This document shows, piece after piece, positions 38,948 through 57,924 of a DNA stretch of 59,385 nt. The stretch is taken from assembly GCA_009843915.1 (NCBI GenBank), contig VYCM01000011.1, forward strand, positions 1-59,385, written 5' to 3'. This DNA is from Acidimicrobiaceae bacterium. GTDB taxonomy: Bacteria > Actinomycetota > Acidimicrobiia > Acidimicrobiales > Aldehydirespiratoraceae. The translations under genes and the position numbers were made by a program. The stretch's first letter is position 1. Each line of letters starts with the position of its first letter. The notes under the pieces are model-generated. The model was not told where the DNA came from and did not search any database. It saw only the letters and a list, made by a program, of their open reading frames with translations.

Positions 38948-40138
38948 ATGCCCCCTCACCTGGCAGATCCTGGTGATCCAGTTGGCAGCGACCAGCAACA
39001 TGAACGGGGCCAGGTGACGCAGCGGCCGGCCGCGGAGTTGCTGGAGATGGCCCGGAGCGTGTCGCCGGTGTTCTCCGGCTCTCGACTAGTAGCGATGCGA
39101 GAACTGCTTGGGCGGACGCAAGGTGACGTGGCTGCTGCCACCGGGATCAGCCCGTCGGCCCTTAGCCAGGCCGAGCGTGGGGACACGACCTTGTCCGCGG
39201 CCAACATCGTCCGGGTCGCGTCGTTTCTTGAGGTGCCGCCCGCCGCCTTCGTTGAGCAGCCTGAGCCTCAAGTAGCTCTGATTCCTCAGTTCCGACATCT
39301 GCGCCGCACGCCCAAGCGTGAGCAGCGCCAAGCCAAGCAACTCGTGTACGCCACGGCACAGGTTGCCCAGGTGCTTCAGCAGTCCGTTCAATTCCCTGAG
39401 CCGTTCGAGTGCGACGAAGCTGTCGATCCCGACCTACCCATCGAGGAGGCCAAGAAAAAGGTCGAGCGGGCCGCAGCCCAAGCCAGGGAAGCCCTGGACG
39501 TACCGCCCGACGATCCCATCGGTGACGATGTCATGGGCCTCCTAGAGGCCGGCGGGATCACCGTCGTAAGAGATCCAGACACCGGCGAGGACATCGACGC
39601 ATACTCCGCGATAGTTGATGACCTGCCAATCATCGTGCTCTACGGTGGAGACGACTGTGTTTGGGATCGTGACAATTACAACCTCGCCCATGAACTAGGG
39701 CATCTTGTGATGCACCGCGGAACCCAACGCGACCCAGGCACACGAACCGTCGAAGCGCAGGCCCACCGCTTCGCTGGAGCATTCCTCGGTCCAAAGAAAG
39801 CAATACGGTCGCAGCTACCCACTGATCTGGACTGGGGCCGTTACCTCCAACTAAAGCGCACCTGGGGTCTGTCGATGGCGGCTCTCGTACGCCGGGCGAA
39901 AGACCTCAACGTGATCGATGACGCGACCTACACGCGAGCGATGAAGCAGCGCAGCTCGTACGGCTGGCGCTTCAAAGAACCGGGATCTAAGGACCGCGCT
40001 GTGCCAGAACCGCAGTACCTCAAGCTTGCGGCATCTCTATCCGGTATGTCCGCTGAGCAGCTCGCGGACCGCACCTACCTGCCCACCCGAGTGGTGGAGC
40101 GGATCATCGGCAAGCCGCTCCCCTCGCTGGTGGCCTGA
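38948..40138 (+). CDS. XRE-family regulator fused to ImmA/IrrE (M78) metallopeptidase domain
   Basis: A 396-residue protein: an N-terminal helix-turn-helix (residues ~45-100, LVAMRELLGRTQGDVAAATGISPSALSQAERG), a central helical region, and an M78 peptidase domain with HELGH (NLAHELGHLVMH) and a later EAQAHRFAGAFL Glu region. ImmR/ImmA and IrrE proteins of this kind cleave repressors in mobile elements or stress responses. GTG at 39014 (VTQRPAAELLEMAR) is an alternative start. It is divergent from the ubiquitin-like operon and is its likely regulator, by position only. Confidence 0.85.
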   Translation: MPPHLADPGDPVGSDQQHERGQVTQRPAAELLEMARSVSPVFSGSRLVAMRELLGRTQGDVAAATGISPSALSQAERGDTTLSAANIVRVASFLEVPPAAFVEQPEPQVALIPQFRHLRRTPKREQRQAKQLVYATAQVAQVLQQSVQFPEPFECDEAVDPDLPIEEAKKKVERAAAQAREALDVPPDDPIGDDVMGLLEAGGITVVRDPDTGEDIDAYSAIVDDLPIIVLYGGDDCVWDRDNYNLAHELGHLVMHRGTQRDPGTRTVEAQAHRFAGAFLGPKKAIRSQLPTDLDWGRYLQLKRTWGLSMAALVRRAKDLNVIDDATYTRAMKQRSSYGWRFKEPGSKDRAVPEPQYLKLAASLSGMSAEQLADRTYLPTRVVERIIGKPLPSLVA

Positions 40139-41330: not shown

Positions 41331-42296
41331 TCAGGCGCAGGACTCGCGAAGCGATTCCTTGAAGGCGGTGTAGCCGGGCGAGCCTGCGACTGTCTCCCAT
41401 AGCAGAGATGCGAGGTTCCGGTACTCGTTCCACTCGCGCTCAATCTCTGCTATGCGTCTCTCAAGCTCCTTCTCTACCGCCTCGTGAGCTTCCTGCGCCT
41501 CTCGTTCCTTCGCCAGCCGTTCGTCTCGTTCTTGGTCTGACTCCTCCGGATTCTCCTCCGGTGGTCCCGTCAACTCCACACCTAGCTCATGCCTCACCTC
41601 GTCCTCTAGTCCCCGTAGTGCCGTGTCCGGGTGCTCTGGAAGAGGTTCGTCTGCGGGGACTGCGTCGGATGCCGCCGCCACAGCCGGATCAGCAGCGATG
41701 AGAGCTTCCCACGCACGCTCAAGGGCGACTCCCTCTGTGCCGGTAGTGACTGATCCTCTGGCCCGGTGGAGCTGCTCGATAGCTGCTTCCGCGGCTCGCG
41801 TATGGTCCGAGCCCAGAACGTAGAGCTGATCGTAGGCGTCGAAGTAGGCGTCAGTGGCCTCCGCTCTGTCCAGTTCATCGGTGGCCAAGTCCTGAGCACG
41901 CTGAGCTTCCTCCAGTGCGGCTTCGCCAGCCGCCAGCGCGACAGCGGCCTTGTCACGCTCATCCCACACCCTCTGGATGTCTGCGCACCAATCGAAGCGA
42001 TTTCCCAGCCGCACCTGCTCGGAGGCCGCGGTTATGGTCGGAGCGGCCATCGCGTCGGATTCGTCCGAGCCACTCCGCTCGGCGGTGGTGGAAGTGGCTG
42101 AGGAGTCACGTTCGGCCGTGATCTCGATTTCTGCATCGATGGCAATCGAGTCCGGCTCGTCATCGCCGCCGCAGGCGCTCAGTAGGCCGAGCACTAGGGA
42201 CAGCAACGCCGCCAAGGCCAGCCCGTTGGTGACATGTCCTCTCCTGGTCAGCGCCCTGTCGCGGCCTGGATGGTCATCGTGTGGCTCGGCTGGCAT
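41331..42296 (-). CDS. Putative lipoprotein with coiled-coil domain, unknown
   Basis: About 321 residues. Start chosen at ATG 42296 because a structured leader with GGAGGGAG ends there. A membrane/signal segment (LALAALLSLVLGLLSAC) ends in a lipobox with Cys near residue 41, then an acidic Ser/Thr-rich linker, and two coiled-coil regions (DERDKAAVALAAGEAALEEAQRAQ, and ERLAKEREAQEAHEAVEKELERRIAEIEREW) flanking a charged middle. No catalytic motif seen. Probably anchored outside the membrane. Its leader is shared with the exported-protein gene at 56060-56758. Confidence 0.7.
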   Translation of the reverse strand: MPAEPHDDHPGRDRALTRRGHVTNGLALAALLSLVLGLLSACGGDDEPDSIAIDAEIEITAERDSSATSTTAERSGSDESDAMAAPTITAASEQVRLGNRFDWCADIQRVWDERDKAAVALAAGEAALEEAQRAQDLATDELDRAEATDAYFDAYDQLYVLGSDHTRAAEAAIEQLHRARGSVTTGTEGVALERAWEALIAADPAVAAASDAVPADEPLPEHPDTALRGLEDEVRHELGVELTGPPEENPEESDQERDERLAKEREAQEAHEAVEKELERRIAEIEREWNEYRNLASLLWETVAGSPGYTAFKESLRESCA

Positions 42297-42435
42297 GGTG
42301 GCTCCCTCCGGTGCGGGTTGGGCTTTCGTGCCAGCGAATGCCTGTGACCGAGCCGGAGGGGGCCATGGCGAGGCCCACCCGCGGTGGTCCCCGGTCACTG
42401 ATGGGAGTTGGCTAAGGCTCCCGACATTCGCTGGC
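42297..42435 (-). promoter_or_regulatory. Structured 5' leader (candidate translational riboswitch), copy 1
   Basis: A 139-nt leader. Helices (plus-strand coordinates): P1 42330-42340/42425-42435; P2 42403-42407/42418-42422; P3 42344-42350/42392-42398; P4 42313-42323/42373-42382; and 42304-42311/42353-42360, in which the ribosome-binding site (GGAGGG) pairs with CCCTCC. P1 and P3 cross P4 and the last helix, so the fold is a pseudoknot or a switch. The copy at 56759-56899 keeps all five helices with different sequences in most of them. Confidence 0.75.
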
Positions 42436-42442
42436 GAGCGGC

Positions 42443-42471
42443 ACCGTAGCGGTAGCCGTCGGAGGGGGCAA
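42443..42471 (-). promoter_or_regulatory. Promoter of structured leader copy 1
   Basis: On the minus strand: TTGCCC (-35), 17 bp, TACGGT (-10), 7 bases before the first P1 nucleotide, so transcription should start at P1. Confidence 0.65.
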
Positions 42472-54254: not shown

Positions 54255-54309
54255 AAATGGCAGGTCAGGCCGGGGATTGATGTCACACCCCCTCGGTACT
54301 GTAGTGGCT

Positions 54310-55236
54310 ATGAGCAAGCCGCATGAGATCGTGAAGACCGGGATGAGTCTGGTGGCCTTCTTCCGCCGCTACCCGACCGACGCCGAAGCCGAAGCCCAGT
54401 TTGAGGCTTGGCGCTGGCCGACGGGACCGCAGTGTCCGCACTGTGCAAGCACTAGTGTCTCGTGTGTGAAGTCGCGTCGTCCGCAGCCGTTCCGGTGCCG
54501 TGGGTGTCGCCGTCATTTCTCGTTCAAGACCGACACTCCGATGCACGACTCCAAGTTGGGGGCGCAGACGTGGCTGTTGGCGCTGTTCCTGATCGTGTCG
54601 AACCCGAAGGGCCGTTCCAGCGTCCAGTTGGCTGCGGACTTGGGGATCACTCAGAAGTCGGCTTGGCACGTCGGCCACCGTGTTCGTAAGGCGCTGTCTG
54701 ACGGGTCGCTGCCCGGCTTCGACGGACCGGTTGAGGTCGATGAGACCTACATCGGCGGCAAGGCTAGGAACCGGCATCGTCGGCAGCGTGATCCCGGCAA
54801 GACTGCGGTTATCGGTGTCAAGGACCGCCAGTCCGGTCAGGTCGCGGCTACACCGGTGCACGACGTGAACACCGGCACCGCCGAAGCCATGGTGGCAGCC
54901 ACCACGAATGCCGGTGCGGACGTGTTCACCGACGGGTCGCGGGTGTACGACGGTCTGTCGGAGATGGGTTACGGCCATCAGCGGGTCATCCACAGCATCG
55001 GCGAGTACGTCCGCGGTCCTGTCTCCACGAACGGTGTCGAGAACTTCTGGTCCGGGTTGAAGCGCACCTACATCGGCACCTACCACTACTGGAGCGATGA
55101 GCACATCCACCGCTATGTGGATGAGCACTCGTTCCGGTACAACAACCGCAGCCGCCATATCACCGACCGCATGGCCGACGCGGCTGCGGCCATGAACGGC
55201 AGGCGGTTGCCATGGCGTGAACTGGTGGCAGCATGA
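54310..55236 (+). CDS. IS1595-family (ISXO2-like) transposase
   Basis: A 308-residue transposase. A zinc-ribbon (CPHC at ~33-36 and CRGC at ~56-59) precedes the DDE domain: VDETYIGGK (first Asp), VFTDGSRVYDGL (second Asp) and GVENFWSGLKRTYIGTYH, with the acidic residue, then DEHIHRYVDEHSFRYNNR. Length is normal for the family. The frame opens at 54277 with TTG, but ATG 54310 gives the family start. It moves the 3,090-bp element. Confidence 0.92.
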   Translation: MSKPHEIVKTGMSLVAFFRRYPTDAEAEAQFEAWRWPTGPQCPHCASTSVSCVKSRRPQPFRCRGCRRHFSFKTDTPMHDSKLGAQTWLLALFLIVSNPKGRSSVQLAADLGITQKSAWHVGHRVRKALSDGSLPGFDGPVEVDETYIGGKARNRHRRQRDPGKTAVIGVKDRQSGQVAATPVHDVNTGTAEAMVAATTNAGADVFTDGSRVYDGLSEMGYGHQRVIHSIGEYVRGPVSTNGVENFWSGLKRTYIGTYHYWSDEHIHRYVDEHSFRYNNRSRHITDRMADAAAAMNGRRLPWRELVAA

Positions 55237-56059: not shown

Positions 56060-56758
56060 CTAGTCCCACGAGCGGGGAACCCTGAACTCGGGTGGACAGT
56101 CCGCGACCTTCTGGTGATAGACGATGCCGGCGCCTTCGGTGCCGAGCAGAATGAAGTTCATGTACCGGTCCGGGTCCCACAGTCTCGCCGGGTCGTAGCC
56201 GCAGCCGAGTTCCACATACCGGTGGCTTCCCGGTTCGGTGTAACTCATGTCCGTCTCGAAGGTCCAGACGTGTTCGACACCGGTCCCTAGATCAGCCATC
56301 CGCAGCGGCAGCCACTGTTGTTGATCGTCGACGCTGATGTAGCCGACCAGCCGGTGGATGCCGGGTTCCAGCACCGCTGGCGGCCAGTCGTAGTACACGT
56401 ATCCGACTTTGCCGACCGATGGTCCGGTCACGGACTGGCCGGTGTGGATGGTGTGCAGCAGTTCCATCATGTCGGATCGTGTGAAGTCGTCAGACACGTC
56501 CGCGCCGAGCACGTCGTCGTAGAAGCGTTCCATGAAGATCAGCGCATGATCCTTGGACAGCGGCGTTGACGGCCGGAACGTCCCGTCGCCATAGCCGGTC
56601 GTCACGCCAGCATCGGCAGCCCAGTGGATCGCATCAGCTTGCGGGTGGTCGGCTGGCACATCGGAGAACCGCTGGCCGGTCTGGGCGATGGCGGTGCCGC
56701 CTACCAGCACGGCGACGGCGATGACGGCAATCAGGAGGCGTCGGACGTGGCGACGCAT
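56060..56758 (-). CDS. Secreted SLH-domain protein
   Basis: A 232-residue protein with a signal peptide (LLIAVIAVAVLVGGTAIAQ), one S-layer homology domain (RFSDVPADHPQADAIHWAADAGVTTGYGDGTFRPSTPLSKDHALIFMERF) and a C-terminal domain with VGYVYYDWPPAVLEPGIHRLVGYISV and YRYVELGCGYDP-like strands (SHRYVELGCGYDPARLW). It probably sits in the cell wall or outside. Its mRNA has the structured leader at 56759-56899. Passenger of the IS element. Confidence 0.78.
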   Translation of the reverse strand: MRRHVRRLLIAVIAVAVLVGGTAIAQTGQRFSDVPADHPQADAIHWAADAGVTTGYGDGTFRPSTPLSKDHALIFMERFYDDVLGADVSDDFTRSDMMELLHTIHTGQSVTGPSVGKVGYVYYDWPPAVLEPGIHRLVGYISVDDQQQWLPLRMADLGTGVEHVWTFETDMSYTEPGSHRYVELGCGYDPARLWDPDRYMNFILLGTEGAGIVYHQKVADCPPEFRVPRSWD

Positions 56759-56899
56759 GGTGGCTCCCTTCGGTGCGGACTGGGGTTCTTGCCGTGAACG
56801 CCGTGCACCCGAACCGAAGGGAGCCTCGGGAACCCCTTACGGTCCGCAACATGTTCGGGTGCATCACGGGAGCGGCAAGGCTCCCACGACGTTTACGGC
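56759..56899 (-). promoter_or_regulatory. Structured 5' leader (candidate translational riboswitch), copy 2
   Basis: A 141-nt leader. Helices (plus-strand coordinates): P1 56791-56803/56887-56899; P2 56868-56873/56880-56885; P3 56804-56814/56853-56863 (11 bp perfect); P4 56775-56780/56842-56847 and 56782-56788/56830-56836; SD-sequestering 56762-56773/56814-56825 (12 bp perfect, contains AAGGGAG). The same arrangement as copy 1, mostly with different bases but kept pairing. Confidence 0.78.
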
Positions 56900-56906
56900 G
56901 ACCGAC

Positions 56907-56935
56907 ACCGTAGAAGACGGAGGCCAGTCCGGCAA
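56907..56935 (-). promoter_or_regulatory. Promoter of structured leader copy 2
   Basis: On the minus strand: TTGCCG (-35), 17 bp, TACGGT (-10), 7 bases before P1, identical in geometry to copy 1. Confidence 0.65.
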
Positions 56936-57329: not shown

Positions 57330-57924
57330 GATGCCGCCGAAGCACCTAAAGCGCGACGGCAAAGAGGGCGCGCTCGCGAAGTGGTACGCCGAACGCTTCC
57401 GTGCCTTCGCCTACCAGATCAAGGGATACGGCGATGACGGGAGCATCCGAATCCGGACTCCGATTGAGATCGGGAAGGCCACCGATACTGCCGCTACCGA
57501 AGCATCAGGCGACTACAGCTCGATCCTGCTCCCCGACGACGCCGAGCGCACGACAGGCTCCCGCCAGTCCCTAACGGTGCCCGTCGAACAACGCGACCAC
57601 TGGCAGCGAGCGCCCTACGGCACGCCGGCATGGTGCGAGGCGTATAGCTCGGGACGCAGCACCGTGGAGAGCGTGAACGGCAGGCTCAAGGAGAAGGGCG
57701 GACTGAAGCGGGACAACTGCCAAGCGATGGGCCTAGCGCCCATAACCCTGTCCACGCTGGCGCTCGTCGTGATCTACAACCTGGGCAAGACCTCCGACAA
57801 GCTGTTGAAGCAGAGCGACTCCAGCGGCGGCGCATGCAAGCGGCCCAGCGGCCCCGTAGCGAGGCCGAGGTCCGGCTCCGAGCGCCGCCGCGCCGCCCAG
57901 GCCGCGACCCGCGCACCTCCCTAG
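57330..57924 (+). pseudogene. DDE transposase, C-terminal part (split by IS1595-family element)
   Basis: After the target duplication the frame resumes as MPPKHLKRDGKEGALAKWYAERFRAFAYQIKGYG and later WQRAPYGTPAWCEAYSSGRSTVESVNGRLKEKGGLKRDNCQAMGLAPITLSTLALVVIYNL, the classic 3' end of large DDE transposases; the Glu in TVESVN (about E547 of the joined protein) is the third catalytic residue. Removing the element and one target copy restores the frame exactly. As it stands neither half is a full enzyme. Confidence 0.78.

Follow-up and report, generated by a model that had tools for sequence, protein, structure and literature searches.

A Covarying 5′ Leader Class of Acidimicrobiia with a Putative Double-Pseudoknot Lock of the Ribosome-Binding Site

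Introduction

The contig VYCM01000011.1 of an Acidimicrobiaceae bacterium, of which a stretch of 59,385 nucleotides was analysed here (the window), contains two minus-strand genes for a lipoprotein-like protein and an SLH-domain protein, each headed by a leader that starts shortly behind a promoter-like pair of boxes and ends at the start codon. A preliminary description, made from the sequence alone, regarded these leaders as a candidate riboswitch class. This raises the question of whether they share an actual RNA fold, how widely such leaders are distributed, and what they may do to the gene behind. The evidence described below favors a cis-regulatory RNA class of the Acidimicrobiia in which a double pseudoknot would lock the ribosome-binding site and exert translational control on the gene behind, a reading to which we assign a probability of about 0.8.

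Results and Discussion

Two Leaders in the Window

A sequence check located both leaders on the minus strand exactly as described previously. As RNA, copy 1 runs from 42435 to 42297 (139 nt) and is followed by an ATG at 42296, and copy 2 runs from 56899 to 56759 (141 nt) and is followed by an ATG at 56758. The TACGGT box 7 nt ahead of helix P1 and the TTGCC(C/G) box 17 bp further up were also confirmed at their coordinates in both copies. The parts are as follows.

42466–42471 (−): −35 box of copy 1, TTGCCC
42443–42448 (−): −10 box of copy 1, TACGGT; predicted transcription start at approximately 42435
42423–42435 (−): 5′ strand of P1 of copy 1, GCCAGCGAATGTC
42403–42422 (−): P2 hairpin of copy 1, GGGAG...CTCCC
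42392–42398 (−): 5′ strand of P3 of copy 1, GTGACCG
42369–42382 (−): A of copy 1, the 5′ half of the P3 loop, partner of A′
42353–42365 (−): B of copy 1, the anti-Shine–Dalgarno half of the P3 loop, partner of B′
42344–42350 (−): 3′ strand of P3 of copy 1, CGGTCAC
42330–42342 (−): 3′ strand of P1 of copy 1, GGCATTCGCTGGC
42313–42328 (−): A′ of copy 1, the linker strand
42299–42311 (−): B′ of copy 1, CCGGAGGGAGCCA, containing the Shine–Dalgarno (SD) sequence
41331–42296 (−): lipoprotein-like gene P0001 behind copy 1, 321 aa, without a Pfam family
56930–56935 (−): −35 box of copy 2, TTGCCG
56907–56912 (−): −10 box of copy 2, TACGGT
56759–56899 (−): leader copy 2, whole
56899–56888/56802–56791 (−): P1 of copy 2
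56885–56868 (−): P2 of copy 2
56863–56854/56813–56804 (−): P3 of copy 2
56847–56831 and 56825–56814 (−): A and B of copy 2
56787–56775 and 56773–56762 (−): A′ and B′ of copy 2
56060–56758 (−): SLH-domain exported protein P0002 behind copy 2, 232 aa, Pfam PF00395, E 1.3e-11

From 5′ to 3′, the elements are arranged as the 5′ strand of P1, the P2 hairpin, a short joint, the 5′ strand of P3, and a large loop in which A is separated from the subsequent B by a short joint containing an invariant C. These are followed by the 3′ strands of P3 and P1, then A′, the SD-bearing B′, (A)CC, and finally the start codon. As previously proposed, P1, P2, P3, and the SD-containing helix can be formed in both window copies from different bases. 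The P3 described for copy 1 was correct; that of copy 2 (TGCACCCGAA/TTCGGGTGCA) comprises 10 bp and reaches the 11 bp assigned earlier only by using one base of B. The full arrangement of the helices is not a plain row, as A′ also pairs with A of the P3 loop. Single-sequence folding gave z-scores that are suggestive but not decisive (−3.13 and −1.95 for copies 1 and 2, respectively), and copy 1 by itself folds into P1/P3. Since two sequences alone prove little, the case rests on 71 copies of relatives (E < 3e-4).

The longest open reading frame (ORF) of the lipoprotein gene starts at a GTG (42398) within the leader, which would conflict with the ATG start. The surroundings of copy 2 contain an IS1595-type transposase gene on one side (54277–55236 (+), Pfam E 3e-36) and on the other a fragment that matches a DDE transposase below threshold (57331–57924 (+)). 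They sit in a stretch of lower GC content (35–55 kb, 56–64% versus 67–70% before) near a tRNA-Pro, which is probably an acquired island. A gene for an HTH and IrrE-like metallopeptidase protein (38948–40138 (+)) is located near the border of this stretch.

Relatives and Distribution

The first relatives in the same genus were found by using a 23-base pattern around the SD, and covariance models were then built from four copies (R1) and thirty copies (R2). R1 gave 19 matches in 9 of the 16 genomes of the genus, including the own genome, which is likewise counted in the order and class below. R2 detected the leader in at least 28 of the 397 genomes sampled in the order, which represent 5 of 203 genera and four families. 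In the class, it was detected in at least 16 of 395 genomes, consisting of ten of the same order and six of a further family (f81); five of the latter are counted, as the match in one (G533) was judged false. Spread beyond the order was hence observed for two genera of this one further family. A sample of 296 genomes of the phylum yielded the own genome and one marginal match, which was judged false. The order, class, and phylum samples overlap, and all of these counts are lower bounds, because the filters were strict and 60, 7, 7, or 10 candidates (7 for the order, 7 for the class, and 10 for the phylum) were scored per genome in groups of more than 40 genomes. The matches L129 and L133 (33 and 30 bits) were judged false, as an anchored search found no good B:B′ before a start. 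Six copies of family f35 (L098, L111, L113, L114, L119, and L121) appeared by eye to form a long-insert subtype with A located further upstream; the model misaligns this subtype, so that the class may be wider than counted.

A gapped pattern located 27 stretches in named contigs, of which 24 were matched by R1 at E ≤ 0.1. Nineteen contigs are titled as Acidimicrobiia-type, including Ca. Poriferisocius and Sva0996, the latter of which we take to be acidimicrobial, four are titled only "bacterium", and four carry other names (Deltaproteobacteria, Terriglobia, Streptomyces, and Gemmatimonadetes). The names of the MAG series presumably denote sponge metagenomes for the most part. Flanking pieces of the Gemmatimonadetes and Terriglobia MAG loci (L077 and L071) are 74–93% identical to acidimicrobial loci, over approximately 1.2 kb for L077 and in short pieces of 38–301 bp for L071. 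This similarity suggests that both contigs are probably misbinned, with horizontal transfer of the leader as a less favored alternative. The Deltaproteobacteria locus (L055), which scored 13–17 bits with R2, was judged to be a chance pattern match. The Streptomyces sp. SID4985 locus (L072, 3207–3361 (−)) scored 26.2 bits with R2 (E 2.7e-4, on 21.6 kb that had been chosen by the pattern). It contains a 12-bp anti-SD/SD pair, present by choice of the pattern, followed by a start and an ORF; its P1, P3, and A:A′ lie outside the usual arrangement, and R1 did not match it. This locus may be either a chance match or a distant relative. A viral origin was considered and dropped upon finding 0 exact pattern matches in viral contigs.

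Pairing and Covariation of the P1–P3 Scaffold

Alignment A9 contains 71 copies, obtained from 80 matches after leaving out nine with E > 8e-4, all in loci with a stronger match (eight on the opposite strand and one elsewhere in L050). In this alignment, 93.6% of the P1/P2/P3 cells were paired, compared with 56.7% for shuffled and 28–42% for slid strands. Cells changed on both sides numbered 546 versus 141 upon shuffling, and the covariation score was 0.784 versus 0.188; none of these three values was reached in any of 500 shuffles. A count of the pairs that show at least one double-sided change (25/25 versus 23.6 shuffled, as high in 107/500) did not discriminate. Since the alignment was fitted to P1–P3, these pair counts are inflated.

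Further evaluation was made with a reduced set of copies. Sixteen of the 71 (L053, L068, L098, L100, L102, L103, L111, L113, L114, L116, L117, L118, L119, L121, L122, and L123) were dropped from the promoter, unpaired-base, fold-energy, ranking, and 44-copy strand-swap tests, because P1 was apparently misplaced by the model in the long-insert subtype or because the copy was truncated or weak. Dereplication of the other 55 at 80% gave 44 copies, among which window copy 1 (L033) is represented by L034. For a wider strand-swap set, L103, L117, and L118 alone were left out, which gave 56 copies from the 71 after dereplication. When all 10,296 column pairs of the 44 copies were ranked by covariation without reference to structure, the top 19 were all located in P1/P2/P3. 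Pairing of own strands was also far stronger than that of strands swapped between copies, with z-scores of −23.6 for P1 and −17.2 for P3 (each 0/10,000; 44 copies). The own strand outranked all others in 37 (P1), 16 (P3), 15 (A), and 8 (B) of the 56 copies. The covariation expected in further homologues was observed, and the leaders are conserved mainly through pairing. P2 is a more variable element, which together with its GCC loop is missing, reduced, or altered in many copies (e.g., L083 and L092). The P2 loop (UNGCC) paired weakly with the 3′ end of P1 (z −2.5, 83/10,000, 34 copies).

Two Crossing Helices around the Ribosome-Binding Site

The helices A:A′ and B:B′ lie outside the covariance model and hence provide fairer tests than P1–P3. 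A:A′, formed between the linker and the P3 loop, gave a strand-swap z-score of −15.3 (0/10,000; 44 dereplicated copies) with a mean energy of −17.3 kcal/mol for own strands versus −10.8 for swapped ones, and it was also 0/10,000 in the wider set of 56 copies. It is composed of GCGGGT/ACCCGC, GGGC/GCCC, and TCG/CGA in copy 1, and of GCGGAC/GTCCGC and GGGGTT/AACCCC in copy 2. B:B′, in which the anti-SD pairs with the SD over 12–13 bp, gave a z-score of −10.5 (0/10,000; 44 copies). Its strands were 96.1% paired versus 32–70% for slid ones and 91.2% for shuffled ones, the last value being high because B:B′ is well conserved. Double-sided changes were nonetheless found in 10 of its 13 pairs (shuffled mean 5.0, 0/500), and its column pairs occupied covariation ranks 33–35 and 38 of the 10,296. 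Examples of such compensation are GGCTCTCTCCGG/CCGGAGAGAGCC in L050 and GGCTCTCCCTGG/CCAGGGAGGGCC in L045. Wrong strand combinations exhibited z-scores of +0.3 (A:B′), +0.2 (B:A′), −0.1 (P1-5′:A′), +0.9 (P2 loop:A′), and −1.4 (A:P1-3′). A hairpin between A and B (P4) gave a strand-swap z-score of −2.1 (152/10,000) versus −15.3 for A:A′, and it was set aside.

As A and B are located inside P1/P3 and A′ and B′ outside, A:A′ and B:B′ each constitute a pseudoknot on the scaffold, and they also cross each other. In pseudoknot-free folding, the P1/P3 fold was better than a fold with B:B′ only in 37 of the 44 copies; the latter was equal or better in 7, including window copy 2, for which the two differ by 0.2 kcal/mol (−65.4 for B:B′ only versus −65.2). 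This indicates that B:B′ most likely closes as a pseudoknot without destroying P1 and P3. The two pseudoknots would presumably form simultaneously. The B:B′ duplex averages approximately −25 kcal/mol. The earlier placement of the ribosome-binding site within the 3′ strand of one helix was correct; it corresponds to the SD in B′, which stands just ahead of the start codon in most copies, and either the SD or B:B′ is damaged or missing in L079, L103, L117, and L118. Invariant unpaired positions are few, consisting of one C before B and (A)CC after B′ (44 copies), and G-U pairs occur within the helices. In L124–L128 and L132 of family f81, B′ carries GGGACC in place of GGGAGCC, and B is changed to match (GGTCCC), leaving the lock one pair shorter. 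A few copies were also inspected by eye for a conserved peptide-coding frame within the leader; the frame is not kept, and this reading was rejected.

Promoter and Start of the Transcript

For the promoter, dereplication on the upstream sequence left 52 copies. A TANNNT hexamer starts exactly 13 nt ahead of P1 in 34 of them and between −14 and −11 in 43, and it is present between −40 and −15 of P1 in 0 of the 52. TTG is located 36–38 nt ahead of P1 in 28 of the 52. Such a fixed distance between promoter and P1 predicts transcription to start at the first base of P1, which would be the 5′ end of the mRNA.

Genes behind the Leader

In 55 of the 71 copies, the controlled start position opens an ORF that is non-redundant and 35 aa or longer; among the rest, 14 have only shorter ORFs (< 35 aa), one lacks a start, and one is a duplicate. 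An N-terminal hydrophobic segment was detected in 40 of the 55 ORFs, compared with 3 of 50 ORFs of the window and 13 of 98 ORFs of the named loci; the starts of both control sets were called crudely. Pfam analysis of nine proteins behind leaders gave matches for four and none for five. These matches are a ResIII helicase domain, RCC1 repeats, fibronectin type III domains, and a trypsin-like domain, the last in a split frame behind one of the copies of L067. SLH proteins, lipoproteins, and short membrane proteins were also found downstream. The gene products had been called unrelated, which holds for the two window genes, yet four of the five lipoprotein homologues in the genus (the own one included) lie behind a leader, one of them as the second gene. 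SLH genes were rejected as the defining theme of a regulon, since the leader was found at only 2 of 20 SLH loci fetched from the genus, some of which are cut by contig ends; by eye, one f81 leader (L124) precedes an SLH-like protein. No metabolic theme was seen among the downstream genes, which have export and not a pathway in common. Neither a ribosomal protein nor an obvious RNA-binding regulator was seen downstream in a survey made mostly by eye, with Pfam applied to the two window genes and nine others.

The helicase-like gene, which has a ResIII match and a weak type III restriction match, provides a clue to the start codon. At its four orthologous loci (L034, L035, L040, and L044, the same loci as L073, L062, L065, and L060), the controlled ATG opens an ORF of 27–31 aa, and the stop of this ORF overlaps the start of the helicase-like gene as ATGA in 4/4. 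Such a stop/start overlap is a mark of translational coupling. This suggests that the ATG after B′ is truly used as a start. The coupling is lacking in L036 and L043, 2 of the six distinct short-ORF loci examined. A gene of this helicase/type III restriction-like kind behind the leader is possibly a defence gene under the same control.

Mobility of the Promoter-Leader Module

L033 and L034 share 203 bp at 85% identity, covering the promoter and leader, and the genes behind them differ. L035 and L036 likewise share 185 bp at 94%, with different sequences behind. The promoter and leader may thus constitute a module of approximately 190 bp that is copied ahead of various genes, most of which encode exported or membrane proteins. 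At the orthologous helicase-like locus, the P1–P3 part differs between species, and the versions of L034 and L035 resemble the leaders L033 and L036, which suggests swapping or gene conversion between leaders.

Comparison with Known RNA Elements

In agreement with the novelty proposed earlier, no family of Rfam 15 matched the window at gathering score except one tRNA. Searches of both leaders to E 10 gave seven matches, all far below gathering, and 14 loci with relatives gave no match to E 0.1. The class was also not found in the available text of three structured-RNA surveys (PMC2864571, PMC8632094, and PMC11109978) or in a literature search at the level of titles and opening lines of abstracts. 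By Rfam 15 and this literature search, it looks undescribed.

By gene context, the "SLH motif" comes closest among published elements. This riboswitch candidate is described as a cis-regulatory RNA before S-layer homology genes and genes of unknown function, with a cell-wall signal such as c-di-GMP proposed by its authors; the accessible text reports it in Synergistaceae, Clostridia, Negativicutes, and metagenomes, and not in Actinomycetota (PMC6429828). The comparison made here covers gene context and distribution. SLH genes are a minority among the present leaders, and the 27 contigs of the pattern scan include no Synergistota or Firmicutes, unlike the distribution given in that text. The nearest elements by mechanism are the alpha-operon and rpsO operators, in which uS4 and uS15, respectively, bind pseudoknots around start sites (PMC10931766, as far as its text was available). 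They resemble the present leaders in having a pseudoknot at the ribosome-binding site or start region; in these operators it controls initiation, as is proposed for the leaders. The leader class differs from these operators in its genes, in that no ribosomal protein was seen behind it, and in having five helices of which two cross the scaffold. In the preQ1-II/III, SAM-II, and c-di-GMP-II riboswitches, the SD region forms the 3′ strand of a pseudoknot. The leaders resemble them in this location of the SD; they differ in being approximately 140 nt long, GC-rich, and conserved mainly through pairing, without a near-gathering Rfam match.

Proposed Mechanism and Alternatives

The preliminary description is thus upheld in its core, namely a class of 5′ leaders that are structured, covary, contain pseudoknots, and carry the ribosome-binding site in one helix. 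The position of the promoter, the five helices, the involvement of the SD, the modularity, and the gene context are readings from sequence comparison, from which the following mechanism is proposed. Transcription would begin at the first base of P1, and P1, P2, and P3 would fold into a three-way-junction scaffold. The large P3 loop would then capture the tail of the leader by pairing A with A′, the linker after P1, and B with B′ over 12–13 bp. In this double-pseudoknot state, the ribosome would be unable to load, so that B:B′ would repress translation. A putative signal of small-molecule or protein nature would either allow translation by opening B:B′ or close it.

What kind of control this represents can be weighed from the same data. 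The leaders may be true riboswitches, in which the B:B′ lock is stabilised or released when the three-way junction and double pseudoknot bind a small molecule, possibly a general signal of the second-messenger or ion type. Such an assignment is plausible at somewhat less than even odds. A multi-helix conserved structure was found upstream of the gene, with junction, pseudoknots, and an expression platform whose 3′ strand can sequester the SD. Its sharing by many unrelated genes, as with general signals, and its patchy spread over five genera and four families of the order and two genera of a further family are consistent with a riboswitch. Against it speak the few conserved unpaired positions (C before B and (A)CC after B′), the loss or change of P2 and its GCC loop in many copies, and the genes themselves, among which no metabolic theme was seen. 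An operator for an RNA-binding protein that holds or opens the pseudoknot fits equally well, and we likewise regard it as a serious candidate short of an even chance. It has precedents in uS4 and uS15, which act on their own mRNAs in this manner, and is favored by the conservation of structure but mostly not of loop sequence; the genes examined, however, include neither a ribosomal protein nor an obvious RNA-binding regulator.

It is improbable that the leader is a passive element, such as a 5′ stem that protects against decay from the 5′ end combined with constant low translation, or a lock melted by temperature. P1 does begin at the predicted first transcribed base and the helices are mostly GC-rich, but a stabiliser would need far less than five covarying helices of which two cross. 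B:B′, at approximately −25 kcal/mol on average, is too firm a duplex for a usual RNA thermometer, in which the SD lies in a weak helix that melts near the growth temperature. We consider it very improbable that the module is a DNA element, that is, a recombination or insertion site whose palindromes only mimic an RNA fold. A module of approximately 190 bp that is common to different genes, with P1 as an inverted repeat beside the promoter, would suit such an element; however, its span runs from the predicted transcription start to the start codon, the SD is part of the crossing arrangement of A:A′ and B:B′, and the helices contain G-U pairs.

Conclusions

The leaders are hence best read as a cis-regulatory RNA class of the Acidimicrobiia with a putative double-pseudoknot lock of the ribosome-binding site. 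A more far-reaching version, which we consider doubtful, is that a new riboswitch class, built on a three-way junction with two mutually crossing pseudoknots, senses one diffusible signal and thereby sets much of the surface and secreted repertoire, together with the helicase/restriction-like gene, of marine and sponge-associated Acidimicrobiia, its cassette spreading from gene to gene. The fold, in which two pseudoknot helices cross each other, is unusual, and the class is absent from Rfam 15 and occurs in a bacterial class for which the literature searched yielded little on RNA regulation. Through it, many surface proteins that otherwise lack annotation in marine and sponge-associated bacteria would be joined in one likely regulon, which may provide a handle on what they respond to.
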